A DNA stretch of 64,000 nucleotides from Neomelitea salexigens DSM 19753 (GTDB lineage: Bacteria; Pseudomonadota; Gammaproteobacteria; Pseudomonadales; Spongiibacteraceae): contig NZ_AULP01000002.1 of assembly GCF_000422345.1 (NCBI RefSeq), positions 124,001 to 188,000 on the forward strand, read 5' to 3'. How positions within the stretch are numbered: position 1 is the stretch's first letter; each line of letters starts with the position of its first letter. A program made the translations under genes and the position numbers. The notes under the pieces were generated by a model. The model was not told the origin of the DNA and searched no databases. It saw only the letters and a program-made list of their open reading frames with translations. Below are positions 1-9,752 of the stretch, piece by piece.

Positions 1-3000
1 AATCACCTGAGGCAAAGCCTTCGGCACCGGGAATATAGTCACCAGCAACAGGTGGCCTTAGGTAGCCACCTAGCGGAGTACCAACTGGAATATCAATCGG
101 CGCCTTGGCGATACCTGCACGCAGCGGCATAACCGAGTGAGCCTGCGGTTGCTCTTTGGTCTGTGGCTGAGGCTGCTCAAGCCCCGACTCAGCCCCCACA
201 GCCATCATCACTTGGCGCAGCGCATTGGCTGAATTTTCTTGCAGGCCAGCTAATACCGCATCTCCCGCCTTTTGGAACTCGCCATCGCGCATTTGCTCAA
301 CGGCCGCGCTGAAAGCACGGGTATCGATAGGCAGAGTCTCACCATCGACCACTACTGGTTCGCCGACAATAGTCACGGGGGCAGGTAACGGCGGGCAGTC
401 CAATGGTCCCCGTACTTCTCGCGCTATCCATGTATCGAGTAGCTGTCCCTGGCTATGTAGAAAGTGCGATTTTTGACATTTTGCGTGCGGCGCCGCTCGA
501 GGGTAGCCATGGGGGTCGAAATCATCTCCCCTGGGCGCGACATTACCGATAGGTGGGCTTTGTGTTTTTCCTTCATCTAGCTCTATAAAGCCAGACTTGC
601 TGCTGCGGCAAGGGCCCTGGCAACTGCCGCTGTCATAACCCTCGCCGTCTCGCCCAGCGAGCGCCAAGCCCCAAAATGCGTCGACGTCTGGGTCGCGCTC
701 GGCAAAGAACGCCTCTCGAGATGCGAAGGTATAGGTTGCGCTGTCGCCTGGGCGACGCGGGTAAATATCAGCGACCTCAACGCCAATGGTTCGCGCCATC
801 ACCTGGGCGCTCCAGTGTGTCACTTGGTGGTCCGCAAAAGCCGGCTGCAGCAGGACTTGATTGTCGGGCCCATTTAAGGCGCTATTGTCGGCGATATGGT
901 GGGCATAACCATTATTCTCGGACCGATCCCACAGCATCTGGATGAGTGCAAACCCCAAGTCGCGATCCAGGTCATCCTGGTAGGAAAGATAGAGAGGTGT
1001 AGCGTAGGACGGCAAGCCTCCCGGCTCGTATTCCGCGTCAAAATCAACACTGCGCCTCAGCAGGGTTGAGTAGTTCATACCAACGACACCAAATACTCCG
1101 CGCTTCACATCCTTGGACATAGCGACGATCGGTCCTCCGGTAATGCCCCCCTGGGAGTTGCCGTCGTAAAAGATCTCTCTATGGTCGAAAACAGGCAGGC
1201 CCTTGGCATCCTGAAAGACGGCCTCTGCCGCAAAACCAGCCGGGTGGCGCATAGCCCTGGCAAGGAATAGAAAATTCAACAGCCCCTGCTGGGAAGCATC
1301 TGGGATCACCGCGAAATTGGATAAATCGACCAGCGCTGCCAAGACATTGGGAACATCCCCTGTCGAGAAACCGAACAGGTCGACACCACAAAACAGGAAA
1401 TTGTATTCACGGCTGAAATTCGGCACGTGGTCGTATGTCACCGCCTGGTGACCATCCAATAAGCCATGCCCATATATCCCTCCCCTTGCCGGGTTTTCCG
1501 AGCTGGCTTGCTCGGGGATTTGGCAGGTAAATCGCGTTGTCATTTCACCCAGGCTGTCGGGCAAGCCATCCCCGTAGCTCGCCCCGGCGGTATCGAAGGC
1601 GGGTGCATCGAGGGGGTCAAAGTACAGCCGGTTGGGCTGCACTGAGCCGCCATCTGCAATACCCACCCCTTCAAACAAGGTATCGCAAGCTTCGCGCATT
1701 TCCTCCGGAAGCTGTACACACAATTGCTCGGCATAGATGCTGAGCTGGTCCAGTGGCGCTGGGTCGGCGGGGATGACAAAGCTCGGCACGGTGATCGTGC
1801 CCTCGATACGCCTAGCAATCCCTTCCCTGGGATTCTCCGTCACTTTGTCGATCGTATAATCTGGCGCTCGACCTAAATCGGTGATGTTCCCCTGGGCGTC
1901 TTCGAGCTGACCGAGCTGTTTAAAGGCTTCATCACGCATATGGCGTAATCTACCCACATTGTTTTCCGCACTGGCAACGGTAAAGTCCCACGCCAGATAC
2001 AGCTCATCATCGATACCTACCCCCGCTTGCAGCAAAACGGGACGAACGTTTTCATCCCATTGCTGACACCGCGCTGACAGCACTGGAACGCCATCGGCGT
2101 TACTATCACGACAGGCCCGGAAAGCGGCTTGTGCCCGGAGATAGGGATCGCCATCTCGCTGGCTTGGCAAGCGCTTCAAAACAACGACATATCTCTGCCC
2201 TTCATCAAAATTCCGTGCGGGCCGGATGAGCAGCGCCGCCCGTTTTTCTGCCAAGGGGCTGCTATTTTCCACACCCTCGCTGGGTAGCAGCAAGCCGGCG
2301 TTCAAATCCACCTCTGCCCACACAGGGTGCAGTTCGCCACTATCAGCATTGATGACTAATACTGAAGACTGATCGACCTCCAGTGACTCAGACAAATGCG
2401 TTAGTCGAGGCACACCGGGTACCGTGCCATCGTCATTGCTTTGCAGGTTCGGCACGTATGTCATGATCATTTGCCCTGGAGAGAAACCGTCGTTTCGGTT
2501 CCATTCCCTCGGGTCAATCGGCTTTCCAGCGATATTCCTCGGCATCGCCAGAGGATTGAAGTCCACTCGGCGCCCACTACCGCCACGGGAAACGGATTGC
2601 GGGCTGCCATTGCTGGCGGGGACTGTGAAATGGTCGCTTGGAAAAGGAAACAGACAGTGGGCGGGGTCGAGCAGATCACAGCCGCGCGCGGTGGCCTCAA
2701 TCAGTTCGCCAATAGCAGGCAGGCCATCATTAGCAGGCAGGCCATCATTATTACTGCCTCCACTGCCTAGAGCCGCGCATACACCGGGCGCTAATCCGCT
2801 ATCGATACAACTGTCATAAATAGGTATCTCCGGATCTATCTGGCTGCAAAGCGGTTCGGCATCAGCACCGCCTTGCTCGCGACAACGCGCGGCGTATTCG
2901 CGCTGAATATAGTCGACTCTAAACCCGGCCATACTCAACAAACAACGCTCGGAGTCGGCCCCTTCAGTTGAACACGCCGCTAAATATGGCGGTAAATATG

Positions 3001-6000
3001 CATCGGCTTGATCCGCCTTATCAAACAGCGGTAAGTAGCCCTGCATTCTCAACAACGGAGCGGTAAGTGGCCCCAAGGACACGAATTCCTCATAGCCCGT
3101 GAATGGCACCAACATACCGGCGTCACCCGAGACATCCACATAGCTGAACTCTTCTTCGGGGATGATATAGCCAAAGCTATTTTGCGTGAGCCCGAGCAGC
3201 ATCGTGTGCGCATTTGGCGACGCCAAAGAACGAATAAATTCGCCAAATGTTCCGGTTGTTTCACCTGGAATCGTGACGATCTCCAGACCACTCTCTTCAT
3301 CACCCAAGGTAATTCGAGTGACATCGGTAGTGGCGTAGGGTGTTGCCTGTGGCAGGTATTGAGCCTGCGCCCCCAGCTCTGGCGGCAGCTGCTCATTTAC
3401 ACCCGTAAAATCATAATACTGGTTAAATGCGCCCAGCCCCCCTGCGGCGACAAAAACCGGATTAGTAACTGGCAGCACGACTTGCTGACTTTGCACGCGC
3501 AATCCACTGCGAATTTCTCGAATAGCGTCGTCGCCCTGCACCGCAGCGGCCATGCCTTCTCCTCGACAGTGAACGCGACCATAGTCTGGCGATGCATCGC
3601 CATAGCCCTGTGGCTCACAACCGGGACGACTGCCCGACGCCGAAGCATCGGCAATCGGGCCATTGAAATACAGTGCGGTGCCTCCCTCTTTCTCCAGCCA
3701 ATCCGTCACGCCAAGGGGGTAGTCCGGGTGGGGAATACGCGGGTCTTCATTGATAGCAGTCGGATGGGCATTGAACTGCATAAGATAGCCAACATTTTCA
3801 CCGCTACGCGCATCGATCGCCGTCAGCAGGGTGGCAAGGGTGTCGCTATCAATGTCTGGATCCGTCTGTTTGGGACGGCGGTAATTATTAAATTCTGCAA
3901 GCTCTGCCGTCTTCACTGTTACAGCAACTTCTGTCGCGGCCTGCATGGCTTGCTGTGCCGCCAGCGACGCCTGTCGGTACAAGGTATTGTGAATCCAGTC
4001 CTTGGGCACACCGCCCCACAGGCCTTGAAGATCTGCACCCGCATGGCTATGCGTCTGGCCGAATACAACATTGTCCGGAGATATACCAGACGCTTGTGCG
4101 ACTGCCTCGCGCATTTCCTGCTGAATGATATTCCCAGCGCCGACTGCATCAACAACGATAAACATCACTTGCTCGGCAGCATTTTCACCCTCTGCAGGCT
4201 GCTCGATATACATGGCGCGCACCCAACTGCGCTCAACACATTGCGAGGTGTCAAAGGTCTCGGGATCGTAGTTACTCTGTTCAGACAGCAAGCATGGCTG
4301 CTCTGCTGGCGCTGTTAGGCTTTCCCCAAACCCACCAAAGGGGTCAGGTTGATTCTGCAGTGGGTTAATACCAAAGCCGCCGAGATTAAACTTCTGCAGA
4401 TGCCGAGTTTCGCCCAACCTGGGTTCGTCAATACCCGCAATGTGTTCAACACCTGGATCGATAGCTTGCTTCGCGGCGCCAATGCGCAACCGCCCGCGGA
4501 GGAATTCATCGTCATAGATGGTTGCTATCGCCTCAGCGACATCGACCTTTGCAAATTCTGCGCGACTAACCGTTACCCTAAAGCGCTCATGCTCTTCCAA
4601 TACCTCATCATTAACGACCGGCACCGCAGCGACGTAGTCGGTCACTCCCATCGGGATCTCAACATACTGTGGGGCATGCGCAAAATCACGGTCCGAGGTT
4701 GTGATATCAGTGAAAATCAGCTCGACAACCACTGGAACGGGGCTTGCCTGGCTCAAGTGCAATGGCAGCAATAGCTCACCACTGTTTTCATCAGCCGCAG
4801 CATCATCAAGGCTCAGCCCAGGCCTTTGGCTTTCGGAACATCCCTGCTGGAGTTCGCCGTCATCTTCTGGTGTTGCAGGGCATGCATCTAGCTCATCGGC
4901 GATGCCGTCATTGTCGTCATCGGGGTCAGTGTTGTCACCGAGGCCGTCGCCATCGGCATCACTTGTCTCTTGCGGATTACTGGGAAATGCATCATCGGCA
5001 TTGTGAACACCGTCGCCGTCACGGTCGTCATCGCTATTGTCGCCGACCCCGTCACCATCCAGGTCGGCAGACTCAGTGCCATCCAAGGGAAACGGGTCAC
5101 TGCCGTCAGCAACCCCGTCGCCATCAGTATCAGCATCATTCGGGCGGGTTCCAATAGCGGCTTCTTCTTCATCACTTAGGCCATCATTATCGTCATCGCT
5201 GTCACACACATCGCCATGACCATCATCGTCATTGTCTTGCTGCGAACCATTCGATAAAGACGGGCAATTATCCCGTGCATCCGGGACACCATCCCCGTCG
5301 CGATCCACTCTTGCCGCTTCATTGCTACAACCAAATTCATCAACAGAAATACCGGAGCCAGTGCGGGGGCAGCGGTCACGATAGTCACTAATGCCATCGG
5401 CATCACTGTCAGCACCGGCATCGCCATTGTATTGGCCATCGGCTATATCCCGTTCGGTGAGCGCTAAATGTCGCCGGGCGAACTCTTCAGAAACCAACTC
5501 TCGCACTTCGTTGCCATTGGCAGTCCGCGCCCAGCTAGCAACCGGCGTCGAGTGGAAATCGCTGTGTTTGAACGCTGCAAAGTCTGCGCTAAAACTGCTC
5601 GCCGCATCGCGCACTTGCTGTGTGATGTGAATACCATTCTCGGGAATACCATCGGCGTCCAAAGTGAGGAAAAACCGCGCCAAATTCACCGCGGAAATAT
5701 CATCTCCAGCGCTCAACGCTAGCATGCTAATTATCGGCGCCCCGCGGACACTGCCCAAAGAAATTCCGCCGATGCGAAAGTGGATCACCTCTTGCTTGAA
5801 ATACAAAAACCCGCCGCTGCTGTCAGTCAAGGATTCCTGATCATCAGAGGATCGCCGATACATTACTCCGCCTACCGGCGAGTCAACCAACTGGCCATAG
5901 AGTTCACTTTCGGGCGCCGAAGAGCGACCACCCGCTCCACCACCACAAGCAAACAAAATCAAAGAAACGACGGCCAGTAGACCAACCCGATAAGCAGCAC

Positions 6001-6004
6001 GCAT
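1..6004 (-). CDS. giant modular lipoprotein with ceramidase-like and alpha/beta-hydrolase-like domains (partial)
   Basis: The minus-strand frame is open from ATG at 6004 to the left edge, so at least 2,001 residues are present and no stop is seen. A strong Shine-Dalgarno (AAGGAGGT) sits just upstream. Residues 1-20 are a lipoprotein signal with Cys20 in LFAC. Residues about 193-382 hold thrombospondin-type-3 repeats (DxDxDGxxD, about eight copies). Residues about 394-500 look like a Calx-beta module. From about 505 the start (RIGAAKQAIDP), THSHAG (H652, H654) and FNAHPTA (H747) match the neutral/alkaline ceramidase family, including likely zinc ligands. A Cys-rich linker follows, then LFPFPSDHFT near 1110 and GNSQGG with Ser1617, an alpha/beta-hydrolase nucleophile elbow. 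Near 1958 a second ceramidase-type start appears (RAGIAKAPIDIPVGTPLGGY). Outer-membrane or surface lipid/amide hydrolysis is inferred. An in-frame GTG at 6214 is an alternative start. Confidence 0.85.
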   Translation of the reverse strand, partial: MRAAYRVGLLAVVSLILFACGGGAGGRSSAPESELYGQLVDSPVGGVMYRRSSDDQESLTDSSGGFLYFKQEVIHFRIGGISLGSVRGAPIISMLALSAGDDISAVNLARFFLTLDADGIPENGIHITQQVRDAASSFSADFAAFKHSDFHSTPVASWARTANGNEVRELVSEEFARRHLALTERDIADGQYNGDAGADSDADGISDYRDRCPRTGSGISVDEFGCSNEAARVDRDGDGVPDARDNCPSLSNGSQQDNDDDGHGDVCDSDDDNDGLSDEEEAAIGTRPNDADTDGDGVADGSDPFPLDGTESADLDGDGVGDNSDDDRDGDGVHNADDAFPSNPQETSDADGDGLGDNTDPDDDNDGIADELDACPATPEDDGELQQGCSESQRPGLSLDDAAADENSGELLLPLHLSQASPVPVVVELIFTDITTSDRDFAHAPQYVEIPMGVTDYVAAVPVVNDEVLEEHERFRVTVSRAEFAKVDVAEAIATIYDDEFLRGRLRIGAAKQAIDPGVEHIAGIDEPRLGETRHLQKFNLGGFGINPLQNQPDPFGGFGESLTAPAEQPCLLSEQSNYDPETFDTSQCVERSWVRAMYIEQPAEGENAAEQVMFIVVDAVGAGNIIQQEMREAVAQASGISPDNVVFGQTHSHAGADLQGLWGGVPKDWIHNTLYRQASLAAQQAMQAATEVAVTVKTAELAEFNNYRRPKQTDPDIDSDTLATLLTAIDARSGENVGYLMQFNAHPTAINEDPRIPHPDYPLGVTDWLEKEGGTALYFNGPIADASASGSRPGCEPQGYGDASPDYGRVHCRGEGMAAAVQGDDAIREIRSGLRVQSQQVVLPVTNPVFVAAGGLGAFNQYYDFTGVNEQLPPELGAQAQYLPQATPYATTDVTRITLGDEESGLEIVTIPGETTGTFGEFIRSLASPNAHTMLLGLTQNSFGYIIPEEEFSYVDVSGDAGMLVPFTGYEEFVSLGPLTAPLLRMQGYLPLFDKADQADAYLPPYLAACSTEGADSERCLLSMAGFRVDYIQREYAARCREQGGADAEPLCSQIDPEIPIYDSCIDSGLAPGVCAALGSGGSNNDGLPANDGLPAIGELIEATARGCDLLDPAHCLFPFPSDHFTVPASNGSPQSVSRGGSGRRVDFNPLAMPRNIAGKPIDPREWNRNDGFSPGQMIMTYVPNLQSNDDGTVPGVPRLTHLSESLEVDQSSVLVINADSGELHPVWAEVDLNAGLLLPSEGVENSSPLAEKRAALLIRPARNFDEGQRYVVVLKRLPSQRDGDPYLRAQAAFRACRDSNADGVPVLSARCQQWDENVRPVLLQAGVGIDDELYLAWDFTVASAENNVGRLRHMRDEAFKQLGQLEDAQGNITDLGRAPDYTIDKVTENPREGIARRIEGTITVPSFVIPADPAPLDQLSIYAEQLCVQLPEEMREACDTLFEGVGIADGGSVQPNRLYFDPLDAPAFDTAGASYGDGLPDSLGEMTTRFTCQIPEQASSENPARGGIYGHGLLDGHQAVTYDHVPNFSREYNFLFCGVDLFGFSTGDVPNVLAALVDLSNFAVIPDASQQGLLNFLFLARAMRHPAGFAAEAVFQDAKGLPVFDHREIFYDGNSQGGITGGPIVAMSKDVKRGVFGVVGMNYSTLLRRSVDFDAEYEPGGLPSYATPLYLSYQDDLDRDLGFALIQMLWDRSENNGYAHHIADNSALNGPDNQVLLQPAFADHQVTHWSAQVMARTIGVEVADIYPRRPGDSATYTFASREAFFAERDPDVDAFWGLALAGRDGEGYDSGSCQGPCRSSKSGFIELDEGKTQSPPIGNVAPRGDDFDPHGYPRAAPHAKCQKSHFLHSQGQLLDTWIAREVRGPLDCPPLPAPVTIVGEPVVVDGETLPIDTRAFSAAVEQMRDGEFQKAGDAVLAGLQENSANALRQVMMAVGAESGLEQPQPQTKEQPQAHSVMPLRAGIAKAPIDIPVGTPLGGYLRPPVAGDYIPGAEGFASGD
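2713..2748. repeat. 18-bp perfect tandem duplication inside the giant lipoprotein gene
   Basis: The 18-bp unit TAGCAGGCAGGCCATCAT occurs twice in direct succession. It preserves the reading frame and encodes NDGLPA twice in the linker just ahead of the alpha/beta-hydrolase-like region (about residues 1086-1097). Perfect identity suggests a recent slippage event. Confidence 0.9.
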
Positions 6005-6594
6005 TACAGCACCTCCTTGGCAATGCAACACGGGCTCTTCTGCCTGGGTATTTGAGACTGGACCACGATGAGGGCGTAGTGACGGTCGTTCCACGTGTTG
6101 CGATATAGCTCTCTCAGACGCGGGCGCGGGAGAGCACTTTTTATTCTCAACAGTGACGTTACTGGCTAGAGCTGGAGTCGTACAAGCTAACGTCGCAGCC
6201 AACAAACCCAGCACACGGCACCTCTGTACAAACTATCTTTAGTAATTCAATGAGTTAGCAACTAAGGCGCAAAAACACAAAATACTAATAAAGAGAAACA
6301 ACGAGCCCCCGGCTTAAATAATTAAACCACCTCAGCGAGCGCAGCGCGGTCAGTAGCCCCTTCCTATCAGCACCTGCTCTCCCAGGACATTGAGCGCGGT
6401 TAATCTCGGCGATGATCGCCCCAAGCAATACGCAACGCAAAATAGTTTTCTTTATGCAAGGCAAATTGCTAAAAATCAGCAAAAAAGAATGGAATGCCGG
6501 TTAAAACAATGACTTATCGTCAGAAAATCCCTGGCATGTCCTTTGCTCGTCATATTGCGAAACAAGTTGAGACACTTTATAGGAGCGCAATCCG
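6005..6594. other. 590-bp AT-rich intergenic region
   Basis: This gap separates the divergent lipoprotein and cysteine hydrolase genes. It holds a sigma-54-type promoter at 6532-6547. On the minus strand there is an in-frame 70-codon extension of the lipoprotein frame from GTG 6214, with a signal-peptide-like beginning. Base composition is visibly richer in A and T than the flanking genes. No convincing independent gene is seen. Confidence 0.7.
6532..6547 (+). promoter_or_regulatory. sigma-54 (RpoN) type promoter
   Basis: TGGCATGTCCTTTGCT matches the sigma-54 consensus TGGCACG-N4-TTGCW at every fixed position but one. GG (6533-6534) and GC (6545-6546) are separated by exactly 10 nt. The predicted start of transcription is near 6558, about 37 nt before the GTG start at 6595 and ahead of the ribosome binding site AGGAG at 6581. 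It would drive the cysteine hydrolase-hybrid kinase pair. Confidence 0.65.
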
Positions 6595-7188
6595 GTGGAC
6601 CTTTCTTCGACTGCATTAATACTTATCGGCTTTCAAAACGACTACTTTTCTAAAACGGGCATTCTGCATAGCGTGATAGAGGAATCATCGCGGGTAAGCG
6701 GAGTGTTAGAGAATACTCTAGAATTGTTAGAGAACGTGGGTGATCGCTTCGGATGCGTCATATCTACCCCCATTCATTTTACCGAGAGCTATGAAGAGCT
6801 TGAAAACCCCGTCGGCATCCTGCAAACCATTAAAGAGGTTCAAGCCTTTAAAGCCGGGACTCATGGCTCGGAAACGATTGAAGAGCTGGCGCCGTATACA
6901 GATTTAATAACAGAGGTAGCGGGTAAACGCGGGCTCGATGCGTTTTCAAACACGGCACTAGAAAAGCTACTCCGACAAAAGAATATTACCCAAGTGTTGC
7001 TCGCGGGAACCGTGACCTCGATCTGCATAGACTCTACGGGACGGCACGCAGCTGAGCTTGGTTTTGGTGTCGGCGTATTGGAGAACTGCACATCGAGCCG
7101 AACCGTATTTGAACAAGAGTTTTATTGCGAGCATGTATTCCCACTTTACGGTCGAGTAATTAATTCTCAACAACTATTAGCAGCTTAA
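6595..7188 (+). CDS. isochorismatase-family cysteine hydrolase
   Basis: The 197-residue protein has the isochorismatase-like cysteine hydrolase layout: FQND with Asp16, AGKRG with Lys111 and TSICID with Cys144, the family's Asp-Lys-Cys triad. Family members cleave isochorismate, nicotinamide or other small amides; the substrate here cannot be told. It is probably soluble, since no signal peptide is seen. The GTG start is chosen because AGGAG lies 9-10 nt upstream. The stop codon overlaps the next start (TAATG), so it should be translationally coupled to the hybrid kinase. Base composition is more AT-rich than most of the window. Confidence 0.85.
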   Translation: MDLSSTALILIGFQNDYFSKTGILHSVIEESSRVSGVLENTLELLENVGDRFGCVISTPIHFTESYEELENPVGILQTIKEVQAFKAGTHGSETIEELAPYTDLITEVAGKRGLDAFSNTALEKLLRQKNITQVLLAGTVTSICIDSTGRHAAELGFGVGVLENCTSSRTVFEQEFYCEHVFPLYGRVINSQQLLAA

Positions 7189-9752
7189 TGAGAACTAGAG
7201 AACACGCCATGGGCCCGTCAAACAATGAGCTCCAACTGCTATTGCAAAACAAGATGGTGGAAGAGCTTGCCGCCAAGCAGCGAGATTTTGAACTCCTTAC
7301 CAATCTATTGGAAGAGATTGTTTTTCGCTGTGACGAAAATGGCGTATTCAAGTTACTCAATGATGCCTGGGAGAGAAAAATCGGGTGGCCAGTCAACGTC
7401 AGCGTAGGCAATAGGTTCGCGGCGTATCTCGACGATCACGATTCAATACTTCGCGTTAGCGAAGGCCTTCACAAAAAGGAAGACCTCGACTGCGAGATTG
7501 TCATGACGAGCCGCTTCGGCGATATCAGGTACTTTCACCTGCGAGCCAAGAAAAAAGAATCCGATTGGTACGGCTCTTTATACGATGTGACTGAACAACG
7601 TCATACGATGGAGGCGCTCGAGCAAAGCCGAGAGCAAGCCCGAAAACTGTCTCTCGTTGCAAGCCGCACTGACAACCTCGTTGTGATTACCGATGCGCAG
7701 GGGCATGTGGAATGGGTAAATGAAAGCTTTGAAAAAATTACCGGCTTCTACCTTCATGAAGTAAGAGGCAAATCACCGGGAAAATTCCTTCAGGGTCCAG
7801 AAACGAAGGAAGAAACCATCCGTGAGATGCGCAAGGGACTTGCCAACGGCGAGGGGTTCAATGTCGAAGTCGTCAACTATAACCGCCAGGGCGTGCCCTA
7901 TTGGCTTGCTATCGACTGTACGCCTATTAAGGATGATGCGGGCAACCTTATTAACTTTATTGCCATAGAGCGTGAGGTAAGCGAACGCAAAGCCAATGAA
8001 AAGCGCCTCAAAGATAGTGAGCGGCACCACAGAACCATACTCAACTCAGTAAGCGAAGCAATCTTTCATGCCGATGAGAATCTAGACCTCTACTACGCCA
8101 ACCCCGCTTGGAGCGGCATGACCGGGCACTACTTTGGGGAAGGCGAGCACAAAAATCTAAAGGAATTCATCCATACCGACGATATTCCCCTATTACTCAG
8201 TGCGCGAGATGAAGCGCGACGGGGCAGCAGTACAACCCGACAAGAGCTACGTCTAAAGGATTACAACGGCGAATGGCGAAAAGTAGAACTGCTGCTATCG
8301 CGGATTGATCAAGAGCACGACTTCACTGGTGCACTTATTGATATAGACGAACGCTGGCAGGCAACACAGGCCATCCTTCGCGCCAAGCAGGAGGCAGAGG
8401 ACCTGTCGGAAGCCCGCACGCGCTTCGTGGCTAACATGTCACACGAAATCCGCACGCCCTTGAACGCGATTATCGGCATGAGCTCTGTACTGGAGACCAC
8501 AGCTCTCGATGAAGAACAGCGACTTTGCCTAGACACCATTTGCAACGGTGGCAACGCGCTATTGTCCGTTATTAACGACGTTCTTGACCTAGCGCGGCTA
8601 GAAAGCCAAGCCATTGAATTAGAGCGCCATGAATTTCAGCTTGCCCAACTCTGCGAGGAGGCTTTAGACCTAGTGGCGCTGAAATCAGCAGAGAAAGATA
8701 TTCATTTGGTCGCCAGCTGCGACAGCTACATTCCTCACACACTAATAGGTGATAGCCACAAAATTCGGCAGTTGCTTCTCAACTTATTGAGCAACGCCGT
8801 TAAGTTCACTGCTTCTGGAAAGGTCGTATTGTCATTTCGATGGGATCAAAGCCAATCGCCGCTGGGCACCCTTCACTTTAACGTGAGCGACTCCGGCATC
8901 GGTATTCCACCAGAGAGACTGCCGACATTATTCAACGCGTTCACCCAAGCCGACCCCTCCACCACCCGCCGTTTTGGCGGATCAGGGCTCGGGTTGGCTA
9001 TTTGCCAGCAAATCTGCTCAGCAATGGGCGGCGACATTTCCGCGACCAGCACGGTCGGCGAGGGCTCTTGCTTCACATGCAGCCTGCAGTTAGAGGCCGC
9101 AGACCTAACTCCTCCCAAGTCCGGAGGAACACTCACGCTGTTTAGTAACGACGCACATTTGCAATGCACCGCCTCATGGCTGGCGTATCAGCAGGGACTG
9201 CAAATGCAAACGCTACCACCCGACGATAGCGGCATTGCAATCTTCTACGATAACGGCGAGGGACATATAAAGACACTTTTGAACAAGCACCTACCGGATA
9301 TCACTAGCCCTTTACGACTGTGGAAGAAATTAGCCCCTTATCAAGCGCCGCAACTCAGCGGCTCCAATGCTCAGGGGAGTCGACGACTAAGCATCCTCAT
9401 CGCCGAGGACACCGTGCCCAATCAAATTGTGGTTGATGCAATGCTAAAAAAATTGGGGTACGCCGATTACACCATCGTCAACAATGGTCAGGAGGCACTG
9501 GACGCGATGGCCACTCGTCACTATGACTTGGTGTTATTGGATATTCACATGCCCATCATGGATGGTTTTACAGCAGCCAGGGAAATTCGTGCAAACGCGA
9601 ACTACAACAATACTCGTATCATAGCCGCCTCTGCAGACGTCACCACTGATGCCCAGGAGTCAGCGTCCGCAATCGGCTTTGATGATTGGCTAGCGAAGCC
9701 ATTTACACGCAAATCTCTTGAAGAGCTTCTCGAGAGCCAGCAAACAACCTAG
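7188..9752 (+). CDS. soluble PAS-PAS-PAS hybrid sensor histidine kinase/response regulator
   Basis: An 854-residue cytoplasmic hybrid kinase without membrane segments. Three PAS regions lie at about 28-142, 156-275 and 281-395. The second carries GKFLQGPE, resembling LOV-type PAS domains, but the reactive Cys is absent, so photochemistry is unlikely. HisKA has His419 in MSHEIRTPLN. The ATPase domain shows NLLSNAVKFT, DSGIGIP and GGSGLGLAIC. The C-terminal receiver (about 735-852) has Asp785 in LLDIHMP and a KPF lysine. The start overlaps the upstream cysteine hydrolase stop; ATG 7209 is an alternative. No output domain is fused, so a separate partner such as an Hpt protein is expected elsewhere. 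Confidence 0.93.
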   Translation: MRTREHAMGPSNNELQLLLQNKMVEELAAKQRDFELLTNLLEEIVFRCDENGVFKLLNDAWERKIGWPVNVSVGNRFAAYLDDHDSILRVSEGLHKKEDLDCEIVMTSRFGDIRYFHLRAKKKESDWYGSLYDVTEQRHTMEALEQSREQARKLSLVASRTDNLVVITDAQGHVEWVNESFEKITGFYLHEVRGKSPGKFLQGPETKEETIREMRKGLANGEGFNVEVVNYNRQGVPYWLAIDCTPIKDDAGNLINFIAIEREVSERKANEKRLKDSERHHRTILNSVSEAIFHADENLDLYYANPAWSGMTGHYFGEGEHKNLKEFIHTDDIPLLLSARDEARRGSSTTRQELRLKDYNGEWRKVELLLSRIDQEHDFTGALIDIDERWQATQAILRAKQEAEDLSEARTRFVANMSHEIRTPLNAIIGMSSVLETTALDEEQRLCLDTICNGGNALLSVINDVLDLARLESQAIELERHEFQLAQLCEEALDLVALKSAEKDIHLVASCDSYIPHTLIGDSHKIRQLLLNLLSNAVKFTASGKVVLSFRWDQSQSPLGTLHFNVSDSGIGIPPERLPTLFNAFTQADPSTTRRFGGSGLGLAICQQICSAMGGDISATSTVGEGSCFTCSLQLEAADLTPPKSGGTLTLFSNDAHLQCTASWLAYQQGLQMQTLPPDDSGIAIFYDNGEGHIKTLLNKHLPDITSPLRLWKKLAPYQAPQLSGSNAQGSRRLSILIAEDTVPNQIVVDAMLKKLGYADYTIVNNGQEALDAMATRHYDLVLLDIHMPIMDGFTAAREIRANANYNNTRIIAASADVTTDAQESASAIGFDDWLAKPFTRKSLEELLESQQTT

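Follow-up and report, generated by a model that had tools for sequence, protein, structure and literature searches.

The gene lying across the left edge of the window, by which we mean the whole 64,000-nt stretch of the Neomelitea salexigens DSM 19753 genome analysed here (G000:C2:124001-188000), encodes a predicted lipoprotein of 2,743 amino acids that carries three hydrolase modules on one chain. Behind lipobox Cys20 come an N-terminal domain, thrombospondin type-3 (TSP3) repeats, a Calx-beta-like segment, a neutral-ceramidase-like domain (CN, residues 506-1084), an alpha/beta hydrolase (M, 1100-1875) and a second neutral-ceramidase-like domain (CC, 1961-2737). By its sequence, the protein is a member of a modular multi-hydrolase family whose modules appear fused in a largely common order or encoded as neighbouring genes. 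We consider it about two-thirds probable that it is a multi-hydrolase on a single chain, anchored in the outer membrane, which takes complex lipids apart at the cell surface for uptake. The domains derive from known superfamilies; their single-chain combination appears undescribed, as a sequence-only reading of the window had held of the module order, and the open-access literature yielded no description of the combination, of its shuffling across orders or of the giant forms presented below. The order is not unique to the window's genome, being one of at least 14 architectures in the wider family.

The part of the gene within the window, residues 1-2001, occupies positions 1..6004 of the minus strand, with a Shine-Dalgarno-like AAGGAGG at 6012..6018 (-) upstream of the ATG at 6004. 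Read to the left of the window for its C-terminus, the frame stays open to residue 2,743 and ends at a stop at G000:C2:121773, 2,228 bases beyond the edge, with no earlier stop or frameshift. Spongiibacter marinus DSM 17750 holds the same protein (2,738 aa, 96% identical) with a whole-protein ratio of non-synonymous to synonymous substitution rates (dN/dS) of 0.068. The frame is therefore not an artefact, and a chimeric assembly or frameshift is ruled out. Composition gave no sign of recent acquisition, the GC content being 55.7% for the in-window part of the gene vs 55.6% for the remaining window.

CN and CC are neutral-ceramidase homologues. On the whole protein, the Pfam family Ceramidase_alk (PF04734) matches three stretches with 59.3 bits against a cut-off of 32.1, the best of them at residues 2045-2270, and aligns only over positions 22-257 of its 509. 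The first 41 residues of CC lie in the window (1..124 (-)) and the remainder to its left. When compared by hidden Markov models (HMM-HMM) with the canonical ceramidase that the genome also encodes, CC aligned over 548 columns at a probability of 97.2; an alignment with that ceramidase pairs H2113, H2225, S2268, E2414 and Y2453 with the zinc ligands and nucleophile. That canonical enzyme, on another contig (G000:C12), is an 828-codon frame at L050:4832-7318 (-) with a lipobox-like start; it resembles CN and CC in superfamily and motifs and differs in matching both Pfam domains, the C-terminal one included, at 411 bits and in standing alone.

For CN (2753..4489 (-)), a profile built from 18 rows matches human neutral ceramidase (4wgk) with a full-chain E of 4e-7 (6e-5 for the best single stretch) and its Pseudomonas counterpart with E 0.019, and the HMM-HMM comparison gave 97.9 against CC and 84.1, over 176 columns, against the genome's canonical ceramidase. 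An AlphaFold2 model of CN (predicted local distance difference test, pLDDT, 72.7; predicted template-modelling score, pTM, 0.79) found neutral ceramidases at Foldseek ranks 1-4, namely 2zws, 2zxc and two chains of 4wgk (E 1.1e-21 to 5.0e-20; template-modelling (TM) score 0.50-0.54), the next match being at E 4.4e-4 with a probability of 0.30. In the alignment with 4wgk, H652, H747, E915 and Y946 pair with the zinc ligands; S788, in the motif ADAS, was assigned as the expected nucleophile by likeness to GDxS, without an alignment of its own. In neutral ceramidases the zinc ligands are His, His, Glu and Tyr, and the nucleophile is the serine of GDxS. The residues expected in these roles are kept almost throughout: H652 in 17/17 covering rows, H747, E915 and Y946 in 18/18 and S788 in 17/18 rows of CN, and all five CC residues in 6/6 rows, where the rows, as for M below, include close relatives. 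CN resembles the neutral ceramidases of Pseudomonas aeruginosa (CerN; 2zws, 2zxc) and human in fold and, together with CC, in profile and in its expected zinc ligands and nucleophile. It differs in context: CerN is a free-standing secreted enzyme (PMC5150637, in excerpt), whereas the present lipoprotein bears two divergent copies separated by a lipase-like domain.

Module M (380..2707 (-)) is an alpha/beta hydrolase distantly related to the VolA-type surface lipases of the Pfam family Lipase_bact_N (PF12262). The structural matches of its model (pLDDT 84.4, pTM 0.89) are alpha/beta hydrolases, led by acetyl xylan esterases, whose match (E 1.4e-6) is confined to the core. In the HMM-HMM comparison with eight Lipase_bact_N frames of the order, M scored 98.5 over 397 columns, nucleophile elbow included, as compared with 0.2 for module E and 0.3 for CN, used as controls; the S15-like module S, also an alpha/beta hydrolase, reached 84.5 over 70 columns only (modules E and S, found in relatives, are described below). 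The likeness to VolA-type lipases thus comprises this alignment and an alpha/beta hydrolase borne on a lipoprotein; the differences are that M is one of several modules and that its window copy shows no Pfam-level match, and the eight frames of the order stood in for VolA in the comparison. Two of the 36 rows of the M alignment match PF12262 at E <= 1 (best 0.0061), and the family has no match in the window's genome at E <= 0.001. The nucleophile S1617 (GNSQGG) is conserved in 36/36 rows and the probable acid D1725 in 35/36, the triad histidine being either H1832 (34/36) or H1726 (30/36).

We rejected M as a member of the S15, S9 or acetyl-xylan-esterase families, as the 50 Foldseek matches listed span its core only (TM score by query length 0.15-0.25), S9 and AXE1 each have a single Pfam match among the 36 rows, and M scored 0.9 against the S15 module in the HMM-HMM comparison. 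M also occurs without other modules of the set on its chain at loci L044-L049 and at 53/54 of loci L077-L130, which span Halieaceae, Solimonas, Variovorax, Actinomycetota, Myxococcota and Binatota; most of these frames have 670-1,000 codons. To judge from these sequences, stand-alone M is a widespread lipase-like family without a Pfam name.

CN, M and CC are all under purifying selection and have the lowest dN/dS of the protein against S. marinus (0.047, 0.036 and 0.059, respectively), as compared with 0.094 for the TSP3 repeats, 0.148 for the Calx-beta-like segment, 0.181 for the N-terminal domain and 0.182, calculated from few changes, for the linker that precedes CC (residues 1876-1960, 125..379 (-); ratio taken over 1880-1960). 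These values, together with the retention of the expected zinc ligands and nucleophiles in nearly all copies, speak against an adhesin or scaffold with inactive, relic hydrolase folds. Such a protein would account for the long TSP3 and Calx-beta stalk and for the PKD, cadherin-like and Ig-like repeats that relatives carry in the fashion of adhesins, but we regard it as very improbable.

The chain begins with a lipoprotein signal peptide (5945..6004 (-)) that reads LILFAC-GGG around Cys20. A glycine following the lipobox cysteine leads one to expect sorting to the outer membrane. Sorting and surface exposure of this protein, perhaps by way of a type II system, are thus predictions from its sequence; the window's genome has a match to the type II secretion gspL family (T2SSL). 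The N-terminal domain (residues 31-202, 5399..5914 (-)) is recognised by an HMM of our own and occurs also in other TSP3 lipoproteins of the genus and the order. It is followed by the TSP3 repeats (residues 199-380, 4865..5410 (-)), matched by Pfam TSP_3 in five stretches and by TSP3_bac, with nine DxDxDGxx[DN] motifs at residues 199-362, and by the Calx-beta-like segment (residues 403-499, 4508..4798 (-)), which Pfam scores at 23.1 bits, below the 27-bit cut-off.

The layout drawn by the sequence-only reading is thereby borne out. Its landmarks (Cys20, H652 and H654 of THSHAG, H747 of FNAHPTA, and Ser1617) are in place, its "eight or so" calcium repeats number nine, the Calx-beta-like segment is found by Pfam, though below cut-off, and the second ceramidase-type start that it put near residue 1958 is located at 1961. 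The calcium-repeat lipoprotein stalk rests on the lipobox and the Pfam TSP3 repeats, the alpha/beta-hydrolase-like middle on the model of M and its structural matches, and the two ceramidase-like ends on the Pfam score of CC and, for CN, on the 4wgk profile match and the top four structural matches.

The same N-terminal domain and TSP3 stalk, together denoted A in the architectures that follow, also bears other enzymes. It carries an amidase in the window's genome (L043:3873-7415 (+), on G000:C5, E 1.8e-63) and in G008 (L147:2073-5885 (+), E 7.8e-64), and two such lipoproteins end in a RoxA-like cytochrome c, of the rubber-oxygenase type by family name (L145:1893-7355 (+) in G010, E 2.3e-18; L152:2567-7495 (+) in S. 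thalassae, G001, E 6e-22). The stalk part therefore looks, by its sequence associations, like a general carrier of exoenzymes.

In the family Spongiibacteraceae, at least 8/21 genomes searched (G000-G020) encode a related protein that bears at least two enzyme modules. Besides those already named, these modules are S (S15-like), F (a weak DUF3604 match, 18.4 vs 20.4 bits), H (a weak Hydrolase_4 match) and E, which has no Pfam family. The window's genome and S. marinus share A-CN-M-CC; the others are A-CN-S-M in G011, A-S-H-CN-M in Zhongshania antarctica, A-S-M-CC-E in S. thalassae (whose RoxA-like lipoprotein is thus its second stalk protein), A-S-E in G018 and A-S-F-S-M in G020, where the contig ends. 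The longest is found in the metagenome-assembled genome (MAG) UBA5047 (G019), as A-S-H, a run of N, and H-CN-M-S-M-S-F-CC-E-F followed by an S9-like stretch and a further ceramidase-like stretch (L036+L037, G019:C41). Here an open frame of 8,600 codons, 109 of them read as X, lies downstream of a frame of 1,544 codons. The N run falls inside module H, positions 1-252 of which are in the upstream frame and 243-586 in the downstream one. Since two parts of one module flank the run, both frames probably form a single gene of ~10,000 codons with the join concealed in the gap. In nine of the other 13 family genomes we inspected stalk loci (G007, G009, G015 and G017 lay outside this survey) and found none with two enzyme modules: A-S is present in G012 and G014 and S in G003, and no enzyme family was seen at the loci of G004, G005, G006 and G016.

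Module E spans ~740-770 aa with a mean column identity of 59% (alignment A4: L053:14969-17248, L056:9034-11265 and nine further rows) and was found only alongside other modules. In Pfam, four families each matched 1/11 rows, with a best E of 0.052. Peptide deformylase was considered and dismissed, its profile matches (E 0.02 or worse) being taken as chance.

Fusions extend well beyond this family. A scan for M with one genome per species gave 344 pattern matches, of which 327 were confirmed and the 80 best-scoring analysed; 22/80 of these loci encode a chain that joins M to CN, CC, S, H, E or F, a proportion that is not a frequency, as it concerns the best-scoring of 327 loci found with a query favouring fused relatives. 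Loci on the same contig were counted once (L051/G013, L052/G019, L053/G001, L063/G002, L107/L133 in G358, L076/G503 and L124/G050). The fused proteins belong to Spongiibacteraceae, Nevskiales, Salinisphaerales, Ectothiorhodospiraceae, Moraxellaceae and Alcanivorax, and L070 adds a fusion of M with a ceramidase domain recognised by Pfam. The order found most often is CN-M-E (8/22: Algiphilus, Nevskiales, Fontimonas, Ectothiorhodospiraceae, Salinisphaerales, Perlucidibaca and two Moraxellaceae), with A detected in 4/8 and two of the others truncated at the 5' end. Longer chains are CN-M-S-M-CC-E in Stagnimonas (L062) and A-CN-S-S-F-S-M with an S9-like end in a gammaproteobacterial MAG (G503:C8, L134+L135, the same locus as L076), whose frame of 6,307 codons is free of N and both begins and stops within the contig. 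Two ceramidase-like domains per chain also occur in L052, L054, L062 and L065, and in L055 and L057 the second is present under the Pfam cut-off.

The same modules are also encoded as separate neighbours. On one strand, M is followed by CC in Stagnimonas aquatica (L089) and a member of Nevskiaceae (L098) and by CN in Limnobacter humi (L121), an F-like gene precedes M in L102, and a CN-CC-E-F gene is followed by an M gene in Ectothiorhodospiraceae L065. In L059, CN-M-E is followed by a CC-like gene above the Pfam cut-off, and L067 has the same pattern, more weakly. In Alcanivorax (L068, L107) a CN gene precedes S-M, with an extra M gene 3-4 kb off on the opposite strand; the lipoprotein-like CN protein (L133:6789-10790 (+)), encoded immediately ahead of the S-M gene, has a weak C-terminal PI-PLC-X-like domain, under cut-off at E 0.008. 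The remaining loci of the neighbour survey mostly have M alone. At E <= 1e-10, CN occurs in 12/390 genomes of the order and 6/369 of the class, exceeding 200 bits in 5 of the 12 and 4 of the 6, with the window's genome in both sets. Because CN is so rare, its adjacency to M is unlikely to be due to chance, and we take it to indicate that the modules participate in a common process. A survey of relatives for the order proposed by the sequence-only reading recovers it in S. marinus, and shuffled, extended or split variants in other bacteria.

We placed the 80 M modules in a quick tree, rooted at the midpoint, with the Shimodaira-Hasegawa-like approximate likelihood-ratio test (SH-aLRT) as its only measure of support. 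A clade with support 94 comprises 29 rows, 25 of them from fused proteins; its other four rows are L061, L065 (adjoining the CN-CC-E-F gene), L070 (a fusion according to Pfam) and L071 (truncated by a contig end). Spongiibacteraceae have two types of M on different branches. As L076 falls outside the 29-row clade, fusion probably arose at least twice. Of 14 architectures listed by hand (without A, Calx-beta, L057 with its weak CC, or L070), 11 are subsequences of the UBA5047 order, as compared with 3.7 expected when the modules of each are shuffled, and the exceptions are G020, L054 and L076. In this list, L055 was entered as CN-M-CC with its CC under the cut-off, S-M is uninformative for order, and contig ends cut G020, L058, L065 and L066, and L054 on both sides. 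The result describes the order and is not a test of function, because the architectures share ancestry. We tentatively propose, with a probability of roughly one in three, a lipid-degrading analogue of multimodular cellulases, namely a lineage of surface-tethered single-chain lipid-hydrolase megaenzymes of ~1,900 to ~10,000 residues whose modules largely share one linear order. Each chain would process a complex lipid or lipid-rich polymer stepwise at the cell surface, and would be trimmed or extended in individual species by in-frame loss and gain of modules.

For the protein in the window, the mechanism that we favour would begin with the acylated Cys20 anchoring it in the outer membrane and the calcium-binding TSP3/Calx-beta stalk holding its enzymes off the membrane. 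Each chain would carry three hydrolases: CN as a zinc-dependent amidase of the neutral-ceramidase type, CC as a second ceramidase-type amidase and, between them, M as a serine lipase or esterase resembling VolA. Side by side at the cell surface, they would most probably cleave amide and ester bonds in complex lipids, be these ceramides or other N-acyl lipids, acylglycerols or phospholipids. This would free fatty acids and head groups beside the cell's own uptake systems, as with VolA and FadL in Vibrio: VolA is an extracellular membrane-associated lipase that cleaves phosphatidylcholine, and the freed fatty acids are imported by FadL (PMC9496633 and PMC12208996, both in excerpt). In P. aeruginosa, a secreted ceramidase frees fatty acids and sphingosine (PMC5150637). 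Spongiibacteraceae isolates derived from sponges grow on cholesterol (PMC5790920, in excerpt), which makes lipid-rich animal matter a plausible candidate substrate. Catalysis, substrates and the benefit of a single chain are what we infer here, and the surface-tethered multi-enzyme for amide or ester lipids that the sequence-only reading had envisaged fits the architecture and the homology, standing as a prediction with respect to activity, substrate and surface exposure.

Several observations weigh against lipid breakdown by this protein. CN alone scores below the PF04734 cut-off (23.3 vs 32.1 bits), CC alone passes it by 0.2 bits (32.3 vs 32.1, at the DNA level), and the ceramidase equivalog NF041649 of NCBIfam, which aligns with residues 2401-2644 in CC, misses its cut-off by far (37.3 vs 1200 bits). 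The substrates may hence differ from ceramide, and the canonical ceramidase of the genome would make true ceramide cleavage partly redundant. The window copy of M has no Pfam match at E <= 1; the S15-like, S9-like, amidase and RoxA-like partners are not lipid-specific; most genomes of the family lack a multi-module copy, as far as looked; and clustering of flanking frames gave no shared recognisable lipid-uptake gene, the neighbours not having been searched against families.

Some of these points suit an alternative in which the modules hydrolyse non-lipids, whether polyesters, polyamides, N-acyl amino acids, acyl-homoserine lactones or steroid conjugates, for homology informs on chemistry and not on substrate. 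The distance of CN and CC from the ceramidase equivalog agrees with it, as do the S15-like, S9-like and amidase partners on the same chain or stalk, the RoxA-like cytochrome c on that stalk, and the growth of Spongiibacteraceae isolates on cholesterol (PMC5790920). However, the types that recur in linkage include lipid-acting families (neutral ceramidase, the Lipase_bact_N-like M and the weak, sub-cut-off PI-PLC-X-like domain fused to CN in Alcanivorax), and we hold the alternative to be unlikely, if one to be taken seriously. Surface lipid hydrolases might also harm the membranes of eukaryotes (a sponge or an alga) or of rival bacteria, nutrition being secondary. Secreted ceramidase boosts haemolysis by phospholipase C in P. 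aeruginosa (PMC5150637), and Pfam calls Lipase_bact_N a virulence factor lipase. Yet among the fused loci are some from MAGs of groundwater and of diesel enrichments and from environmental isolates, and no immunity or toxin-delivery gene was noticed, without a dedicated search for either; a weapon or host-interaction factor seems to us improbable.

If the preferred reading, lipid breakdown at the cell surface for uptake, is correct, a family that combines hydrolases of ceramidase-like, lipase-like and other kinds in a single anchored chain, and that occurs in lineages including Alcanivorax and the Spongiibacteraceae with their sterol-degrading isolates (PMC5790920), would represent a new design against water-insoluble substrates. 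It would predict synergy from proximity, a calcium-dependent stalk and a module content that tracks diet. The family would also be a source of new ceramidase-like and VolA-like enzymes and of the ~740-aa module E without a family. Extracellular breakdown of complex lipids by bacteria is usually ascribed to individual secreted enzymes. Closest in design are multimodular surface glycoside hydrolases and cellulosomes, in which several catalytic modules, shuffled among proteins, are held on one surface-anchored chain or scaffold. These act on polysaccharides, and the protein described here is like them in having several shuffled modules per anchored chain; no lipid counterpart was found in the open-access literature searched.

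Around the gene and its relatives, the clusters of flanking frames consist of the modules themselves and of genes from closely related Spongiibacteraceae and Alcanivorax. Upstream genes are common to L059, L064 and L066, one of them TrkA-like by reading. By eye, two large frames resembling hybrid sensor histidine kinases flank the neighbourhood of the gene (window 7188-9752 (+) and L004:4839-8537 (+)), and in Zhongshania and G011 (L039, L040) frames that read as PilY1 and minor type IV pilins adjoin the multi-module gene on its left side.

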